Source: Dictyobacter formicarum (lineage in GTDB: Bacteria; Chloroflexota; Ktedonobacteria; Ktedonobacterales; Ktedonobacteraceae). From it: a stretch of 64,000 bases of DNA. Location: contig NZ_BNJJ01000004.1 in NCBI RefSeq assembly GCF_016587435.1, forward strand, positions 62,001 to 126,000. Direction: 5' to 3'. Within the stretch, counting starts at the first letter, position 1; each line of letters starts with the position of its first letter. Positions 30,211 to 49,319 of this stretch are shown piece after piece. The notes below the pieces were generated by a model. The model made no database searches and had not been told where the DNA came from. It saw only the letters and a list, made by a program, of their open reading frames with translations. A program made the translations under genes and the position numbers.

Positions 30211-30726
30211 ATGATGACGAAGCATGTAAAAAAGCCAGTGCCGCTTAAGATGGTAAGCGCCTGTATGGCGGGTGTGCAATGCCGCTATAATGGACAGTCA
30301 AAAACGGTTCCGATGCTGAGAGATATGGTGCAGCGTGGTGATGCGATTGCCTTGTGTCCTGAGCGCCTGGCCGGATTAGCTACACCACGGCGACCAGCAG
30401 AAATTAAGGGCGGCGATGGCTATGCTGTGCTGGATGGCAAGGCGCGTGTGTATGATGATCTTGGAGAGGATCTGACCGGTGCCTTCATTATTGCTGCATA
30501 TAAAACTTTACATGTATTGCAAGCAGCTGGTGTAAACGAGGTCGTGTTGAAGGAAGGTAGCCCTTCCTGTGGCTGTAATGAAATTTATGATGGTACCTTT
30601 TCAGGCACCCGAAAATCTGGCGTTGGGGTTACCACTGCGCTCCTGCTACGTTCTGGCATCCACGTCTATTCTGAAAAGATGCTATTTGGCGATGCCCAGC
30701 CTGAACTGGTATTGAGCAATATGTGA
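30211..30726 (+). CDS. DUF523 family protein
   Basis: A 171-residue protein of the DUF523 (YbbK-like) family. Clear family blocks are MVSACMAGVQCRYNGQSK, ALCPERLAGLATPRRPAEIKGGDG, KARVYDDLGEDLTGAF and EVVLKEGSPSCGCNEIYDGTFSG, with conserved cysteines at SACMAGVQC, LCPE and SPSCGC that probably hold a metal or Fe-S cluster. The function of the family is not known. About 13 residues at the N-terminus are extra. The TGA stop codon directly borders the left end of the IscB element, so its 3' end may serve as the guide-encoding flank. Confidence 0.88.
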   Translation: MMTKHVKKPVPLKMVSACMAGVQCRYNGQSKTVPMLRDMVQRGDAIALCPERLAGLATPRRPAEIKGGDGYAVLDGKARVYDDLGEDLTGAFIIAAYKTLHVLQAAGVNEVVLKEGSPSCGCNEIYDGTFSGTRKSGVGVTTALLLRSGIHVYSEKMLFGDAQPELVLSNM

Positions 30727-31010
30727 ACTACCCCTGAGCTAAAGACTCAGGGGCTTCGCAAGAAGCCTGAGTTCACCAGACTCCTCATCAGAAATGGTGA
30801 GACCGTTTGAAAGGTCATGACACCTGCGGTTGACGCATCAGACTGCTGCTCTGTCGCCTGGATTTAAGAAGGGCTGAGGAAAGGCCCGGTGATCCAGATG
30901 GAAAAAGCCTTTTGAACTGTGTCGAGATGAGGTCGGACTCCCTCCATGGTCACAGTGGAGGGATACGCATTACCCGGCGCTTGCCGGAGCATTTTTCCGA
31001 AAGGAATCGT
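30705..31010 (+). ncRNA. Predicted omega RNA of the IscB element
   Basis: The roughly 280 nt before iscB are non-coding and heavily structured, as expected for the guide RNA scaffold of IscB. It begins with GTGAACTACCCCTGAG; CCCCTGAG (30731-30738) pairs with CTCAGGGG (30746-30753), then GGCTTC (30752-30757) can pair with GAAGCC (30762-30767), and GTGAACT (30723-30729) with AGTTCAC (30770-30776) closes the set. In known IscB systems the guide is the 5' end, taken from DNA flanking the left end, so bases around 30705-30722 (3' end of the DUF523 gene) would be the guide. Exact ends are not known. Confidence 0.6.
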
Positions 31011-43186: not shown

Positions 43187-44632
43187 TCACGCAGTATGTC
43201 GAGCTGAGGAATACAATGTGGGCCAGAGATTGATTGTCAGGCAGATAGCCAGCGCTAAACCACATGGTCCCGAAAGACCCATGAGGATGGTGCTCAAGGC
43301 ATATCCCTGGGCGCTATGAATGAAGGGGGAAAGCAGAAGAGGGCTCACACGTAGCACAACAGCGGCATTGCCGAGCCAGAGTGTCGCGCTCACCAGCCGG
43401 GGCGAAACGATCTGGCAGCCGGAGAAGCTCGGCAACATACGCGGCGCAATGCCGCAGATCAAAAGCGCGATAAATCCGATGGCGAAGCTATGGCGGATCG
43501 CATCAATGGCGACTGGCGCGCTGCCAGTCGCTAGCAAACTGAGACCATCAATAAGTAGCAGCAGGGCGCCAAGTAGCGCCCACAGATAGGAGCTGGCAAC
43601 CAGGCCTACGAATGGTCCGTAATTGGCTTGCTCTTTCTTTATCTGTTTCTTATAGCTCTGAGCCAATGCTACAGGTTTGGGGGCGAGTTGCGCCACGCGC
43701 TGTGGTAGGCGGCCTCGCTTGCGCATCAGGCGCAGGAAGGTGCCGACAAACAGCAGCACAACGCCTCCCGTCAGTAGCATGCCCAGACCACCGATGATGT
43801 TTGCCCAGAACTGTGGCAGGTTATTTGCTGTGCCCACGCTCATGAGCGCCAGTCCTGTAAAGTATGTTCCGGACAGAGGCCACAGCGCCCGGCGTGGAAA
43901 ACCATCTAGCTCTGCATACATAGGCAGGGAGCGGGCCGACATTGCCAGCGCTATTGGCACCAGGAAACCGAAGAGACCCAGCGTCACATTCAGCGCATCG
44001 CTCCTATACAATGCTAACCCGCTTCCTTGCGCTGCCTGTACGACATTGAGTAAATTCACGATACTGGCGATTCCTGATGAACAGAAAGCGCCCACAAAAA
44101 ACGGCAAGACGCTCCAATAGGCCGGGCGTGTCTTCGCAGGCGGACCACGCCGTGCGGTTACTCCTATCAAGAACAGAATGCCGCCAATGGCGATTACTTC
44201 GAACAGCCCGCTGTTGACAAGCATTAACCGCCACGCTGGAGCATCCACCATAATTAGTCCGGGCTGACTGACAGCTCGTAGGATCAGGCTCACAATGGCT
44301 ATGCCTAGCAACCAGGGTAGAAAGCGGGCGCCCGCCAATGGGGCGCCACATAGCCGTGGGAAAAAGTGTAACGCTATACCCAGGACAAAAAGGCCTGCCC
44401 ATCCATACAGTTGGAGATGTCCATGTGCCTGTACGACGGCTTCCCACCACATGCCAGGCGGTATTGCAAAAGCCAGCGATAGTGTCAGCACGCTTGCCAG
44501 TACAAAGCCGCCGCACGCCCCTATAAGGAGAGCCGCCTTCACCACTGGCGCAACGCGCCAGAACGGTTCCTGCTTGTTCTCCGTTTCAAGCTTTGATGTA
44601 TGCCCATGTTTTCCATATCCAATTGTATGCAT
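43187..44632 (-). CDS. NnrS-like multi-span membrane protein
   Basis: A 481-residue protein with about 12 hydrophobic segments. The diagnostic block is VVQAHGHLQLYGWAGLFVLGIALHFFPRLCG, the NnrS-type AHGHLQ motif with histidines in membrane helices; a second half has IRHSFAIGFIALLICGIAPRML. NnrS proteins carry heme and copper and protect cells from nitric oxide. It is 12 bp downstream of the copper protein gene and belongs to the cluster with the Crp/Fnr regulator, DUF2249 and hemerythrin genes. The ATG at 44632 has AGGGGA upstream; a TTG one codon earlier is possible. Confidence 0.85.
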   Translation of the reverse strand: MHTIGYGKHGHTSKLETENKQEPFWRVAPVVKAALLIGACGGFVLASVLTLSLAFAIPPGMWWEAVVQAHGHLQLYGWAGLFVLGIALHFFPRLCGAPLAGARFLPWLLGIAIVSLILRAVSQPGLIMVDAPAWRLMLVNSGLFEVIAIGGILFLIGVTARRGPPAKTRPAYWSVLPFFVGAFCSSGIASIVNLLNVVQAAQGSGLALYRSDALNVTLGLFGFLVPIALAMSARSLPMYAELDGFPRRALWPLSGTYFTGLALMSVGTANNLPQFWANIIGGLGMLLTGGVVLLFVGTFLRLMRKRGRLPQRVAQLAPKPVALAQSYKKQIKKEQANYGPFVGLVASSYLWALLGALLLLIDGLSLLATGSAPVAIDAIRHSFAIGFIALLICGIAPRMLPSFSGCQIVSPRLVSATLWLGNAAVVLRVSPLLLSPFIHSAQGYALSTILMGLSGPCGLALAICLTINLWPTLYSSARHTA

Positions 44633-44644
44633 CAAAGGTCCCCT

Positions 44645-45055
44645 TTATTGAACAATCACGGTCAGATTCATCCCTGGATGAACCGTGCAATACAGATGAA
44701 ACGTACCGGGTGTCGTGAATGGCCCTATGACCTGACTGTTGCCACTGCCACTGATCTGTACATTGTTCACAGTTGGCATGCCCTTCTCCTGTATTGGCTG
44801 AGAGCTTCCATTCACCCAACTGCCGCTGGCAATGATATGGGGTGTCGCTGCATCATCCATCAACATAATGGTGCCGCCCTTCCTGATAGTAACAGATGAC
44901 TGTGCAAAGTTCTGATCGCTCATGTGCACCATATAGCCACCGCTATCGCTGTTAGAACTCCCACTGGTACTGCCAGTACCGGAACCACTACTGCATGCGG
45001 CGATTACAAGCGTCATCAAGCTGAAAAATATTAAAACCGCTAGAAGTTTTTTCAT
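44645..45055 (-). CDS. Cupredoxin (type 1 copper) lipoprotein
   Basis: A 136-residue secreted lipoprotein and probable electron carrier. The signal peptide ends with VIAAC (Cys21), followed by a Gly/Ser linker. The copper site is complete: His73 in ATPHIIASG and Cys123, His126 and Met129 in FHLYCTVHPGMNL. The beta-sandwich strands IRKGGTIMLMDDA and VIGPFTTPGTF fit plastocyanin-like folds. It is the first gene of the operon with the NnrS-like protein, and a copy of the shared CRP-like palindrome lies 88 bp upstream. Confidence 0.92.
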   Translation of the reverse strand: MKKLLAVLIFFSLMTLVIAACSSGSGTGSTSGSSNSDSGGYMVHMSDQNFAQSSVTIRKGGTIMLMDDAATPHIIASGSWVNGSSQPIQEKGMPTVNNVQISGSGNSQVIGPFTTPGTFHLYCTVHPGMNLTVIVQ

Positions 45056-45341
45056 AATTGTACTTTCCCTGCTAATAGAACAGCTATACTAAGTAATTCT
45101 CTTCTCTAACGAAGAGGATAACTTTAGCAGGTGGAGATTCCTGCGACTTTTGTCACATAGAGGCGTTGTGATGTGTTTGTGATGGCCAGCTGTTCAATCG
45201 GATGAGCGCAGCTGCCTGGAAAGCCAACCACATACCTGGATACGGATCACTTTGAATGGCAGAGCTATGGCAGCGGAGCTAGCCGCGAGTGAGTAGCGTT
45301 GACGATTGCTTTTAATCGCACTGTAAGGGAAGATGAGGATG
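45056..45341. other. Intergenic region upstream of the copper protein operon
   Basis: 286 bp between the copper protein gene (start 45055, minus strand) and the end of the Crp/Fnr gene. It contains the palindrome at 45143-45156 and nearby TGTGA half-sites (about 45166-45185). No gene. Confidence 0.5.
45143..45156 (-). promoter_or_regulatory. CRP/FNR-like operator, site 1
   Basis: GCGACTTTTGTCAC on the + strand; on the minus strand this reads TGTGACAAAAGTCGCA with flanks, i.e. TGTGA-N6-TCGCA. It lies 88 bp before the copper protein start. The same motif occurs at 46140-46153 and 48399-48412. Confidence 0.6.
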
Positions 45342-46013
45342 TTATTCCGAGGTGAGCAAACGGAGGCGTTCACGGTCCATCACGATAGCTCGCCCCTGGT
45401 GCATCTCGATGGCACCCGCTGTCTCTAGCTCTTTGAGCGAGCGTCCCACGACTTCACGAGCGGTGCCAGCCAGCGCCGCCATCTCTTGTTGGGTCAGGTG
45501 ATGGGAGTGGTGAGCCTGCTGAGATGCTTCCTCCTGATCAAGGAGCAGCTTGGCGACTCGGGCCGTGACATGACGGAGAGAAAGATCTTCGACAAGTGAG
45601 ACAAGATGGCGCAAGGCACCTGTGAGCGAGCGTACGACGGCTTCGGCTACTTCGGGCCGCGTCATGATCAGTGTGCGCAGATCCGCGCGTCTGATGACGT
45701 ACACACTGCTTCGCTCCATAGCTGCCACACTGGCGGGATTGGGACCGCCATCCAGAGCAGGCACATCGTTGAAGGTGTGGCCCGCCGCGATCATGCGCAG
45801 GACCTGCTCCTTGCCGCTCGGCGAGGTCTTGAAGACTTTGACTAGCCCCGAATGCACATAGTGCAATGCACCACCCAGATCGCCTTCCAGCAAAATGAGG
45901 TCACCGCGTTCGTAAGAACGCTCCTGTGTCATTACCGCAACCTGTGCCAGGTCCTCCTGGTTGAGCTGCGCAAAAAGAGGAATGCGGCGCAGCACTTCGA
46001 GTTCGACGGGCAT
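45342..46013 (-). CDS. Crp/Fnr-family transcriptional regulator
   Basis: A 223-residue regulator with an N-terminal cyclic-nucleotide-binding-type barrel (SYERGDLILLEGDLGGALHYVHSGLVKVF, VLRMIAAGHTFND) and a C-terminal HTH (LTQQEMAALAGTAREVVGRSLKELETAGAIE). It has no cysteine at all, so it cannot hold an FNR-type Fe-S cluster; a heme or other ligand, as in DNR-type NO sensors, is possible. The recognition helix has Arg186, Glu187 and Arg191 in the same R-E-x-x-G-R pattern as E. coli CRP, which reads TGTGA. That agrees with the TGTGA-N6-TCGCA palindromes nearby. AAGGAGAG precedes the ATG at 46013. Confidence 0.9.
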   Translation of the reverse strand: MPVELEVLRRIPLFAQLNQEDLAQVAVMTQERSYERGDLILLEGDLGGALHYVHSGLVKVFKTSPSGKEQVLRMIAAGHTFNDVPALDGGPNPASVAAMERSSVYVIRRADLRTLIMTRPEVAEAVVRSLTGALRHLVSLVEDLSLRHVTARVAKLLLDQEEASQQAHHSHHLTQQEMAALAGTAREVVGRSLKELETAGAIEMHQGRAIVMDRERLRLLTSE

Positions 46014-46081
46014 AAGATCTCTCCTTCCAACCAGGTATCCAATCCCGATATGAGAGAACAATAGCAGAACCCAGGTTTGGG

Positions 46082-46095
46082 TGTCAATCCTGACA
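46082..46095. promoter_or_regulatory. Small palindrome upstream of the Crp/Fnr gene
   Basis: TGTCA-ATCC-TGACA, a perfect 5 bp inverted repeat with 4 bp spacer, about 70 bp before the Crp/Fnr start codon. It may be an additional regulatory site; its half-site order differs from the three main operators. Confidence 0.3.
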
Positions 46096-46139
46096 ATAGT
46101 TGTTGCTGTACTACGAAGTTTTCCAGCGGACACGAGATT

Positions 46140-46153
46140 GCGACTTTTATCAC
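46140..46153. promoter_or_regulatory. CRP/FNR-like operator, site 2
   Basis: GCGACTTTTATCAC, the second copy of the palindrome (one change, A for G). It lies between the divergent Crp/Fnr gene (start 46013) and the DUF2249 gene (start 46318) and could act on both. Confidence 0.55.
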
Positions 46154-46262
46154 GGTAATACTTCTGTCCAGTGACTTATATTTGAGACACGTATGGATCT
46201 CCACATGATGTTTATCATATGGAGCATGCGTCATAGGTGCTGAGCTTGCCTCAGCTTTGATT

Positions 46263-46292
46263 CCGAAGGCGCGAAACATATAGCTTTCAGAT
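46263..46292 (+). repeat. 30 bp dispersed repeat, copy 3
   Basis: Begins CCGAAGGCGCGAA and ends TAGCTTTCAGAT. It lies only 25 bp before the DUF2249 start codon, so it would be inside the leader RNA. Confidence 0.5.
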
Positions 46293-46317
46293 ACACTCTG
46301 AAGAAGGAGAGAAGGCA

Positions 46318-46584
46318 ATGATAGAGCAGGCTCTACGTTGGAAAGCAGAAGCAGAAACAGTCCTTGATGTGAGACCAGATCTGGCTAGCGGGGGCGAGCC
46401 CTTTGTGCGCATTATGGAGGCGGCTTTCACCATTCAGCCCGGTGGCACACTGGTGATCATTGCGCCGTTTGAGCCGGTTCCACTCTATGATGCCCTGGGA
46501 GCACAGGGCTTTACACATGAAACGGTTATGGTTGCAGCCGATGAGTGGGTGGTACGGTTTACCCGCGCTCAGTTACCAGGATGA
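46318..46584 (+). CDS. DUF2249 domain protein
   Basis: An 88-residue soluble protein of the DUF2249 family: AETVLDVRPDLASGGEPFVRIMEAAFTIQPGGTLVIIAPFEPVPLYDALGAQGFTHE. The LDVRPDLxxGxEPFxxI start and the PFEPxPL turn are typical. The TusA-like fold suggests a role in sulfur or metal transfer, and the family is found beside nitric oxide and cytochrome oxidase genes. It is the first gene of an operon with the cbb3-like membrane protein (10 bp gap). GGAGAGAAGG precedes the ATG. A second DUF2249 gene lies at 48529. Confidence 0.9.
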   Translation: MIEQALRWKAEAETVLDVRPDLASGGEPFVRIMEAAFTIQPGGTLVIIAPFEPVPLYDALGAQGFTHETVMVAADEWVVRFTRAQLPG

Positions 46585-46594
46585 AAGGAGCGGT

Positions 46595-47968
46595 GTGCCT
46601 GTGGGTATTTTGAAACCTGATGCAAAGCAGGGGGACTCCTTACCGTTGAGGAGTACACCTGCTATCTCGACCAGCAGGATGCCAGGCATGATGGGGGGCC
46701 GCCGTGGTCTGCCTTTGTCCGTGCCGTTGCCGTTTCTGCTCACAGGGGTAAGCGCGGCGGCGTTTTTTGGTCTCCTGCTGCCAGCGATGATACCCGAAGC
46801 CATGCTTGCCCCGAACTTCCCGCATGTGTTGGCTGAGGTGCACCTGGCAACGTTGGGGTGGCTGACCATGATCGTTATGGGTGCTTCGCTCCAGCTTACG
46901 CCGGTTATGATTGTGGCTCCGCTATGTGCGACGCGCTTCATTCGCTGGCAATATCCGGTGTATATGAGCGGCGTGACCTTGCTATTGAGTGGCTTCTGGT
47001 GGATGCGACCCTGGCTCATGGCCGTTGGCGGTAGCCTGGTTGTGTTGGCAGTGATCCACTACACAGTGATACTGGGCACCAGTCTTGCGCGTGCGGCTAC
47101 TCGCCCCTTGACCGTGCGCTTTCTGGTCGCGTCATTGGTGACGTTGTGCATTGTGGTAAGTCTGGGGCTGACGATGGCGCTCAACATGCAGTTCAGTTTC
47201 CTTGGAGCAACTTTAGAGTGGGTGCTGCTGGTACACCTTCTCCTGGGCGTCGTTGGTTGGCTCAGCAATACCCTGGTGGGCGTCTCTTATACGCTTGTGC
47301 GCATGTTTGCGATGGCCCATGGCCATACTGATCGTCTGGGATGTTTTGTCTTTGTTCTCTTGAATACCGGCATCGTGATCCTGGCATCTGGCTTCATGGC
47401 AGCCTGGTTGCCGTTGATCGCGATAGGAGGGGGAGCACTGGTAGTGGCTGTCTGGCTCTTTGCTTATGATTTCCAGCGTATGTTCCGTTTGCGCCGCCGC
47501 AAGGTGCTCGATGCAGCACAGTATCATAGTATCGCGGCAGTCGTGTATCTTTCCCTGGTTATTCCTGCCGGTATAGCGGTTGTTCTGGCTGGCTGGCAAC
47601 AGTCAACGATGTTGGTGGCACTCGGGTTGGCGGCGCTGGTAGGTTGGTTAGGCCAGAGCACGATAGGGTATCTATATAAAATCGTGCCATTTCTTATCTG
47701 GCAGAGCCGCTACGGACCGCTCGTCGGGCGTCAGAAAGTTCCTCTGATGCGTGAGCTGGTGCCCGAACGCTGGACATGGATAAGCTGGTGGCTGATCAAT
47801 GGTGGTCTGCTATGTACGCTCTTTGCGGTCCTATGCGTCTGGACGCTGCTTGCGCAGCTTGCTAGCGGATTGCTGGGAGCTGGTCTCGTTCTTGCGGCCG
47901 CCACTGTGTTTAGTGCGCTACGTCATCTCCCTCTACGAAAGAGCAAATATAATGGGAGCACCTTTTAA
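46595..47968 (+). CDS. Cytochrome oxidase subunit I-like (cbb3/NnrS-like) membrane protein
   Basis: A protein of about 457 residues with 12 predicted membrane helices. Histidines in helices, as in VLAEVHLATLGWLTMIVMGASLQLTPVM, LLVHLLLGVVGWLSNTLVG and MFAMAHGH, resemble heme ligands of heme-copper oxidase or NorB-type subunits, but the full set of copper ligands was not found. Such proteins occur beside DUF2249 and hemerythrin genes in nitrite or nitric oxide clusters. The start is uncertain: GTG at 46595 or GTG at 46601, with AGGAG 4 or 10 bases upstream; an apparent longer frame overlaps the DUF2249 gene. Confidence 0.8.
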   Translation: MPVGILKPDAKQGDSLPLRSTPAISTSRMPGMMGGRRGLPLSVPLPFLLTGVSAAAFFGLLLPAMIPEAMLAPNFPHVLAEVHLATLGWLTMIVMGASLQLTPVMIVAPLCATRFIRWQYPVYMSGVTLLLSGFWWMRPWLMAVGGSLVVLAVIHYTVILGTSLARAATRPLTVRFLVASLVTLCIVVSLGLTMALNMQFSFLGATLEWVLLVHLLLGVVGWLSNTLVGVSYTLVRMFAMAHGHTDRLGCFVFVLLNTGIVILASGFMAAWLPLIAIGGGALVVAVWLFAYDFQRMFRLRRRKVLDAAQYHSIAAVVYLSLVIPAGIAVVLAGWQQSTMLVALGLAALVGWLGQSTIGYLYKIVPFLIWQSRYGPLVGRQKVPLMRELVPERWTWISWWLINGGLLCTLFAVLCVWTLLAQLASGLLGAGLVLAAATVFSALRHLPLRKSKYNGSTF

Positions 47969-47979
47969 GTGCTCCCACT

Positions 47980-48300
47980 TTAGTTAAAACCAAGCAGACG
48001 ACGACCTTCCTCCGTCATACGCGATGGGTCCCACGGTGGCTCCCATATCAAGTGTATCTCTCTACTGGTAAGCCCTGGTATTCCCTGCAATGCTGCCTCC
48101 ACCCCATCGCTGAGTGCTTCGTGCATGGGGCAACCGGGCGTAGTGAGCGTCATATCGATCGTGGCGTGCCCATTTGCGTTGACATCGATAGCATAGACCA
48201 GGCCCAGGTCGATGACATTGACGCCGAGTTCCGGGTCATAGACGTGACGTAACGCTTCAGCGATCAGCGCTCTGGTATTTTCACTCGTTGGTATATCCAT
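47980..48300 (-). CDS. DUF59 (MIP18/PaaD-like) metal-sulfur cluster assembly factor
   Basis: A 106-residue protein that helps load Fe-S clusters. The family signature is complete: RHVYDPELGVNVIDLGLVYAIDVNANGHATIDMTLTTPGCPMHEALSDGVEAAL and EIHLIWEPPWDPSRMTEEGRRLLG, with the reactive Cys in TPGCPM. It converges with the oxidase-like gene (11 bp apart). Divergently, after the CRP-like operator at 48399, come DUF2249 and hemerythrin. AAGAAGGA precedes the ATG. Confidence 0.93.
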   Translation of the reverse strand: MDIPTSENTRALIAEALRHVYDPELGVNVIDLGLVYAIDVNANGHATIDMTLTTPGCPMHEALSDGVEAALQGIPGLTSREIHLIWEPPWDPSRMTEEGRRLLGFN

Positions 48301-48398
48301 GTCTGTATCCTTCTTTTACAAGATTAATCGTTTCCGCGCCTGCCTGAGCAGGGAAAGCGGTCTGGAGGAAGCATAGCGCACATGATAAGTGGAGGGCA

Positions 48399-48412
48399 GC
48401 GACTTTTGTCAC
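48399..48412. promoter_or_regulatory. CRP/FNR-like operator, site 3
   Basis: GCGACTTTTGTCAC, identical to site 1. It lies 99 bp before the DUF59 start (minus strand) and 117 bp before the DUF2249 start (plus strand), so it could serve both divergent transcripts. Confidence 0.6.
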
Positions 48413-48528
48413 AGCATTACCTCCAGCGCATCGTGCATACTTGCCTCTGTACCCATAAGCCGTCCGCTGACTTATGTGATTAGTATTCGTGTATATAGCT
48501 TTTATAAGAGAGAAGGATGAAATACATT

Positions 48529-48774
48529 ATGACAGATGCTACTATTGAGACGCTTGATGTTCGGAATATGCAGCCACGTGAGCGCCATCCTGCGATTTTT
48601 GCTCGTCTTGACGCCCTCAAGCAGGGTGATATCTTACGCCTGATCAACGACCATGATCCCGCGCCGCTGCGCTACCAGTTGCTCGCGGAGCGTCCGGATA
48701 TGTTTACCTGGAAGCCAGAAAAACAGGGCCCGGAGGAATGGATTATCCGTATTCAGAAAGTGGAGTCGGAGTAG
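48529..48774 (+). CDS. DUF2249 domain protein, second copy
   Basis: An 81-residue soluble protein: IETLDVRNMQPRERHPAIFARLDALKQGDILRLINDHDPAPLRYQLLAERPDMFTWKPEKQGPEEWIIRIQK. The DVR-PRERHP start, NDHDPxPLRYQ and WxxxxxGPxEWxIRI blocks define the more common DUF2249 subgroup, unlike the copy at 46318. The ATG at 48529 is preferred because AAGGA lies 11 bases upstream, while the in-frame ATG at 48517 directly abuts it. The hemerythrin gene follows 41 bp later. Confidence 0.9.
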   Translation: MTDATIETLDVRNMQPRERHPAIFARLDALKQGDILRLINDHDPAPLRYQLLAERPDMFTWKPEKQGPEEWIIRIQKVESE

Positions 48775-48815: not shown

Positions 48816-49319
48816 ATGACAACATCAACCCAACCCTTACGCGATGAACATAAGGAACTCATGCCCTACATTGAGGCCCTGCGAACAGTGGCTGATGCGA
48901 TTGGTACCGCATCTGGAGAGTCGATCCAACAGGGGGTAGAGGAAGCCTATCAGTTTTTGAAGCACCACCTCATTGCTCATGCGCAGGCGGAGGAAAAAGC
49001 CTTGTATCCAGTGGTAGGTAAACTCATGGGAGCGCCGGAGGCAACTGCCACAATGAGCCGTGATCACTCCGCGATCGTTCAACTTACTGAAGAACTGGGG
49101 CAACTTCGCTCGCACCTATATGAAGCCACGATGAGTGAGACGCATAGAAACGCCTTGCGCCGCGTGCTCTACAGCCTTCATGCTATCATTACAGTCCATC
49201 TGGCGAAAGAAGAAACAGTCTATCTTCCTATTCTGGATGCTCGACTGACACCCGAAGAGACTCAACATCTGTTTGAGACGATGGAGATGGCGGCGCAAGA
49301 GGCAAAGAACACCTTATAG
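48816..49319 (+). CDS. Hemerythrin HHE domain protein
   Basis: A 167-residue four-helix-bundle protein with a di-iron site. The ligands are seen as LRDEHKELM (His12), HHLIAHAQAEEKALYPVV (His51/55, Glu59), SRDHSAI (His84) and HAIITVHLAKEETVYLPIL. Such proteins bind O2 or NO, or help repair Fe-S centres under nitrosative stress (YtfE/Ric-like), which fits this cluster. It ends the DUF2249 operon and is followed by a 25 bp perfect hairpin. Confidence 0.93.
   Translation: MTTSTQPLRDEHKELMPYIEALRTVADAIGTASGESIQQGVEEAYQFLKHHLIAHAQAEEKALYPVVGKLMGAPEATATMSRDHSAIVQLTEELGQLRSHLYEATMSETHRNALRRVLYSLHAIITVHLAKEETVYLPILDARLTPEETQHLFETMEMAAQEAKNTL

Follow-up and report, generated by a model that had tools for sequence, protein, structure and literature searches.

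DNR and NnrR, activators of denitrification in Proteobacteria, share the Crp/Fnr fold, nirK/nnrS-type targets and a palindromic box, which an excerpt of PMC1274295 gives as TTGATnnnnATCAA-like and ctTTGcgnnnncgCAAag. According to the same excerpt, HcpR, a nitric oxide (NO) response regulator of anaerobes, carries R180 and has a CRP-like box in Desulfovibrio (wTGTGAnnnnnnTCACAw). In haloarchaeal and Thermus denitrification clusters, excerpts of PMC11218638 and PMC6282519 describe DUF2249 proteins as co-expressed or co-located with nirK, nor and nar genes. Here we analyse a 64,000-nucleotide stretch of the Dictyobacter formicarum genome (contig NZ_BNJJ01000004.1, positions 62,001 to 126,000; hereafter the window), in which three near-identical palindromes flank or neighbour the gene of a Crp/Fnr-family regulator (crp). 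The refined box, its conservation, its co-occurrence with the regulator, its spacing from promoter elements and the recognition residues of the protein establish a conserved regulator-site pair. From sequence comparison we infer binding by the regulator, activation and the signal: the palindromes are very probably operators of the local Crp/Fnr protein, which would act as a class II activator at three nitrogen-oxide promoters, and the regulator most likely turns on nitrite/NO handling genes in this soil Chloroflexota group. Our analysis adds a new case to a known type of switch, the nitrogen-oxide-responsive Crp/Fnr regulators, with a box of its own.

With Escherichia coli CRP the locus has in common residues R180, E181, R185 and K188 and a predicted class II promoter geometry, but six pocket residues are replaced, and the half site is TGYGAC with an A/T centre. 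The DNR structure 3dkw is a distant match to the window regulator (E 4e-13), and the likeness to DNR/NnrR lies in role and targets, whereas the box here, TGYGAC-W4-GTCRCA, differs from those that the excerpt lists for them. To HcpR, as excerpted, the likeness is by role and site, through the CRP-like box and R180. The DUF2249 genes recall the excerpted haloarchaeal and Thermus clusters, from which organisms, regulators and motif (CGAAYATDKTYG in a haloarchaeon) differ. Among the matches listed in open-literature searches there was no nitrogen-oxide regulon of Ktedonobacteria or Chloroflexota, and the main text of PMC8510549, on CRP/FNR regulators in an anammox community, lacks the word 'Chloroflexi', the one phylum name looked for. 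What the locus offers for this class of soil Chloroflexota is a testable nitrogen-oxide regulon whose box is defined and whose promoters are predicted.

An earlier note on this DNA had placed the sequence GCGACTTTTGTCAC at 45143 and 48399, exactly, and at 46140 with one change, all in intergenic spaces beside named genes, and we find the sequences and their placement as described for all three copies. Its minus-strand reading, TGTGA-CAAAAG-TCGCA, is exact at the first site, while the copy at 48398 departs from it at one outer base and the 46139 copy at two bases, an outer and an inner one. The three boxes are as follows.

45142..45157: box 1, TGCGACTTTTGTCACA, upstream of the copper protein/NnrS-like operon, 86 bp from the copper-protein start
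46139..46154: box 2, TGCGACTTTTATCACG, between crp and DUF2249a/P5
48398..48413: box 3, AGCGACTTTTGTCACA, between DUF59 and DUF2249b/hemerythrin

By counts within the window alone, the palindromes are only mildly unusual, which makes for a weak observation. The 15-mer with at most three mismatches gave 4 matches against 1.55 expected (4 was reached in 8 of 100 shuffles), and the refined pattern with at most two mismatches gave 3 against 0.62 (3 of 100 shuffles); repeated 15-mers numbered 111 in the real window and 3–13 in each of ten second-order Markov simulations. Because these counts barely exceed chance, the window alone is insufficient to settle the question, and the palindromes owe their significance to conservation in other genomes. 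The mild excess over shuffles is what would be expected of a chance repeat or dispersed element, but the box is conserved next to the same genes in genomes whose flanking sequences differ, and we give that explanation next to no credence.

The box travels with the orthologue of the regulator. Among 47 genomes of Dictyobacter's class (Ktedonobacteria), 20 carry a regulator homologue at E≤1e-40; the window protein is 88% identical to one in Dictyobacter aurantiacus. When the 420 bp before the regulator gene were scanned (score: half-site mismatches plus 0.5 per centre G/C; cut 2), a close box was found at 19 of 20 testable class loci (21 in all, one skipped as its N-terminus is missing), compared with 0 of 11 more distant Chloroflexota homologues at 44–49% identity (Fisher p 1.4e-7; 1.6e-6 with G038–G043, six genomes that look closely related, counted once). 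The sole class locus without an upstream box is a second, 49% identical paralogue. A search of the 47 genomes for the exact string YGYGACTTTTGTCRCR gave 16 sites, of which 15 lie in 11 of the 20 orthologue genomes and one in a single genome of the 27 others, where it falls inside a mechanically called open reading frame (Fisher p 9e-5; 0.005 with those six genomes collapsed, 0.013 with them dropped). One genome counted among the 27, G010, is an apparent exception: it carries a crp cut off at a contig end (95 aa, 70% identical), with a box.

These distributions bear on a second explanation, in which the boxes serve another Crp paralogue, such as a global regulator resembling CRP, and merely have the local gene as a neighbour. 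R-E-x-x-G-R helices are also found in most of the distant homologues aligned, class genomes hold 4–38 first-look Crp candidates each, and one box (L078) precedes a 43% identical Crp-like stretch. Box presence nevertheless tracks the orthologue of the local regulator, and palindromes of a loose CRP type show no enrichment; we regard service to another paralogue as improbable.

Outside the class, the idea that a box precedes every Chloroflexota homologue of the regulator was rejected (0/11 at 44–49% identity). Box-like sites precede other genes near three distant homologues, namely sigma-70 genes (L086 at 6067 and L088 at 3014) and a ParA/DUF1858 gene (L089 at 5802), so that distant regulators may use a related box elsewhere. 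At L072, TAGGACAAAAGTCGCT lies 46 bp upstream of a 45% identical crp homologue, and in a wider stretch of the same genome (L090) an HHE-type gene adjoins this 45% identical regulator; the regulon may thus have left a relic beyond the class.

A base-count table of 31 sites gave the refined box TGYGAC-WWWW-GTCRCA, although pattern matching had a part in the choice of these sites, which inflates the core information. On the gene side, 25 of the 31 palindromes are followed by a G, compared with a mirrored C on the far side in 11, and this gene-side G may reflect contact with RNA polymerase. The genome scan proposed in the earlier note, whose TGTGA-N6-TCGCA type of pattern is not strict enough, yielded nothing above control: GCGAC-N4-GTCACA with at most one mismatch gave 134 matches in D. 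aurantiacus against 154 for the reversed control and was discarded as a genome-wide marker. The same fate met TGYGAC-N4-GTCRCA with any centre, which gave 58 sites in the 47 genomes against 92 for its reversed control. Of these 58 sites, the 20 orthologue genomes hold 33 and the 27 others hold 25, and at least three A/T in the N4 centre were present in 19 of the 33 versus 6 of the 25 (p 0.016). What carries the signal is the A/T-rich centre, together with where the box lies and which genes adjoin it. A strict TTTT centre was rejected as essential, since relatives have CTTT, ATAA, GAAA, AAAG and others, in both orientations.

The regulator belongs to the Crp/Fnr superfamily, with PF00027 and PF13545 above cut-off (a cNMP-binding-type N-domain and HTH_Crp_2), and its alignment to E. 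coli CRP (L094) retains the DNA-reading residues R180, E181, R185 and K188. The six cAMP pocket residues of CRP that were checked are G71, E72, R82, S83, T127 and S128; in the window protein they are N, D, N, P, L and V, and a TFNDVPALDGGPNPAS segment, with a similar segment in nine distant rows, occupies the place of the cAMP phosphate cassette. The likeness to CRP holds for the DNA-reading residues but not for the pocket, where all six checked residues are replaced. The window protein has no cysteine with which to bind an FNR-type Fe-S cluster, and none of its histidines is invariant among 16 aligned class rows. No NCBIfam equivalog cut-off was reached, the CRP model scoring 73 bits versus 266 and NF008365 (FNR) 28 versus 228. 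An excerpt of PMC1274295 reports that R180 and E181 correlate with G3 and A6 of the site, and the observed TGYGA half site fits this correlation; the earlier note had matched regulator and site through the R-E-x-x-G-R recognition helix. As the residues on which cAMP-CRP and FNR rely are missing from the sensor domain, the question of its ligand lends itself to direct testing.

The genes beside the boxes, and the -10 hexamers predicted downstream of each box, are listed below.

43187..44635, minus strand: NnrS/COX1-like membrane protein (PF05940 and PF00115, both below cut-off)
44645..45055, minus strand: plastocyanin/azurin-like copper protein (Pfam PF00127 above cut-off)
45115..45120, minus strand: predicted -10 hexamer TATCCT, 32 bp from the box 1 centre, fits TANNNT
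45342..46013, minus strand: Crp/Fnr-family regulator, 223 aa, its ATG backed by orthologue alignment
46177..46182, plus strand: predicted -10 hexamer TATATT, 33 bp from the box 2 centre, fits TANNNT
46318..46584, plus strand: DUF2249 protein (DUF2249a; PF10006)
46595..47968, plus strand: P5, 12-helix membrane protein of heme-copper oxidase/NorB fold, start codon uncertain
47980..48300, minus strand: DUF59/SufT-type Fe-S assembly protein (PF01883; TIGR02945 below cut-off)
48436..48441, plus strand: predicted -10 hexamer CATACT, 33 bp from the box 3 centre, fails TANNNT
48517..48774, plus strand: DUF2249 protein (DUF2249b; PF10006)
48816..49319, plus strand: hemerythrin HHE protein (PF01814)

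The N-terminus of the copper protein, judged by eye, resembles a lipoprotein signal. In textbook class II spacing the box lies at -41.5 and the -10 element is centred at -9.5. Of 31 aligned gene-facing promoters, 21 have TANNNT at 32/33 bp from the box, measured between centres, against a mean of 1.25 per offset and a best non-neighbouring offset of 4 (p 5e-5 by single-base shuffles, the smallest value possible with 20000). The 31 exclude five rows of unclear direction, L047 (likely a duplicate of L046), L048, L082 and the crp- and DUF59-facing directions, except the DUF59 row L060; L055, L060 and L061 (plus side), whose direction was settled later, have no TANNNT by eye and would make the count 21/34. 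By these computed positions, with the box about 32 bp upstream of the -10 centre, the promoters have the layout of class II Crp/Fnr-dependent promoters, and the 21 of 31 at 32/33 bp argue for class II activator geometry. A dimer of the regulator would bind TGYGAC-W4-GTCRCA centred near -41.5/-42.5 and, once bound, would activate the copper protein-NnrS-like, DUF2249a-P5 and DUF2249b-hemerythrin promoters as a class II activator.

Repression of these operons by the regulator would be a further reading, and the box at L023/L024, which begins 37 bp before the crp start, would suit repression of crp itself. The spacing found at the target promoters is nevertheless that of an activator, and the 32/33-bp peak is absent toward crp and DUF59; a repressor of the operons seems to us a poor prospect. 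The box before crp suggests autoregulation, either activating or repressing.

The same genes recur beside boxes in relatives. The three-box layout recurs in Ktedonosporobacter (L049), where one box separates crp from DUF2249a-P5, another separates DUF59 from DUF2249b, and a third precedes an NnrS-like gene; in L053, L055, L060 and L074, too, a box separates DUF59 from a DUF2249 or HHE-DUF2249 gene. The NnrS-like gene of D. aurantiacus lies 2.5 Mb from crp and is still boxed (AGCGACTTTTGTCACT, two departures; L043). Sixteen pattern-found sites were fetched outside crp neighbourhoods, 6 by exact string and 10 from among the 58 N4 sites, these last picked mostly for A/T-rich centres, and regulon-type genes adjoin 10 of the 16: a nirK-like gene (L057), a membrane protein with a molybdopterin oxidoreductase (L058, L061, L076, L077), DUF59/DUF2249/HHE genes (L060, L074, L075 and L082, the G010 contig) and DUF2249 with NnrS-like and nirK-like genes (L078). 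L074 and L075 are nearly identical in appearance and hence not independent. An NnrS-like homologue (E≤1e-60) is present in 20 of the 20 crp-bearing class genomes versus 6 of the 27 others (p 2e-8), NirK-like proteins in 9/20 versus 2/27, and P5 in 14/20 versus 2/27. Taken together, the earlier proposal of a candidate regulon matched to the local Crp/Fnr protein gains strong support, the box tracking the orthologue, preceding the same genes and showing class II spacing.

The nirK-like protein of L057 aligns with copper nitrite reductase 3x1e (E 4e-70), including HSIDFHA, YHCGT...HMANGM, FHVIG and VTH, which we take to be the type 1 and type 2 copper ligands of the two-domain cupredoxin. The molybdopterin protein scores 793–806 bits for NasC (cut-off 1100) and 677–688 for formate dehydrogenase (cut-off 666), and its RLCMSSA motif looks nitrate-reductase-like. 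In relatives the regulon would add a copper nitrite reductase and a molybdopterin nitrate-reductase/formate-dehydrogenase-like operon, and because of these additions a nitrogen-oxide (nitrite/NO) role is suggested. The label 'nitric oxide cluster' used before is less secure for the window: the 43187-44635 protein scores 22.2 bits for PF05940, below the gathering score of 28 and thus short of an NnrS assignment. Stronger evidence comes from the nirK-like and DUF2249/hemerythrin genes that are boxed in relatives.

Several observations weigh against reading the boxes as operators of a nitrite/NO activator. The reversed control of the exact string gave 3 matches, all three in orthologue genomes, and the -10 spacing was noticed first and then tested on mostly the same promoters. 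No regulon gene was found beside 6 of the 16 fetched sites (L059, L062, L079, L080, L081, L093). Enzyme names fall partly below curated cut-offs (NnrS, NasC and TIGR02376, the last for the L057 protein), and the best PDB matches of the molybdopterin enzyme are formate dehydrogenases. When genes were taken first and searched for a box (score ≤2 within at most 900 bp upstream; a usable upstream region was lacking at two further loci), P5 was boxed in 16 of 16 cases (14 in orthologue genomes, 2 in G009/G010), but often by the very sites counted for crp. Boxing was incomplete for NirK (5/8 in orthologue genomes, 0/2 in others) and NnrS-like genes (8/20 and 0/5), and for the membrane gene of the molybdopterin operon it was 5/18 versus 2/12, no clear difference. 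Some unboxed regulon-type genes are downstream members of operons.

The composition of the regulon would also suit the same box and regulator answering to oxygen or redox state in an FNR/ANR-like role, since a low-oxygen regulon could equally comprise hemerythrin, a molybdopterin oxidoreductase, a NorB-fold protein and a nirK-like gene. The lack of a cysteine for an FNR-type cluster and the recurrence of DUF59, DUF2249 and HHE genes at boxes speak against it, and we see an oxygen/redox signal as the less likely alternative, though one of some substance. For the activator preferred here, the signal is most likely NO or nitrite, and possibly low oxygen.

P5 (457 aa) has the 12-helix fold of NO reductases and cbb3 heme-copper oxidases (AF2 model, pLDDT 80.8). 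No Pfam or NCBIfam match was obtained at 1e-3, and the P5 profile, searched against PDB sequences, gave none at E≤1. Heme-copper oxidases bind their metals through six histidines, in helices 2, 6, 7 (two) and 10 (two); with helices assigned by order and without residue superposition, no invariant or nearly invariant His was present in P5 helices 7 and 10 across 35 aligned sequences. A more far-reaching picture, of a Ktedonobacteria-centred class of Crp/Fnr activator that senses NO/nitrite without the known CRP or FNR determinants (a conserved TFNDVPALDGGPNPAS-like segment standing in for the cAMP pocket) and whose nitrogen-oxide programme includes a NorB-fold protein with a rebuilt, possibly non-catalytic or differently ligated metal site, is put forward tentatively and is rather doubtful as a whole. 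With the box, unnamed genes (DUF2249, P5, NnrS-like) could be given a function and candidate nitrite/NO operons spotted in metagenomes.

The P5 family is large and unnamed, with 434 homologues at E≤0.001. A cupin gene follows DUF2249b in L046, L047, L049 and L060 and precedes the NnrS-like gene in L046/L047. The L078 contig holds Crp-like stretches at 617-1126 and 2523-2735 (43% and 56% identical), together with DUF2249a, NnrS-like and nirK-like genes and three boxes. Elsewhere in the window, unrelated to the palindromes, a HEARO RNA (RF02033) lies at 30723-30937 on the plus strand, at 114.8 bits, above the gathering score.

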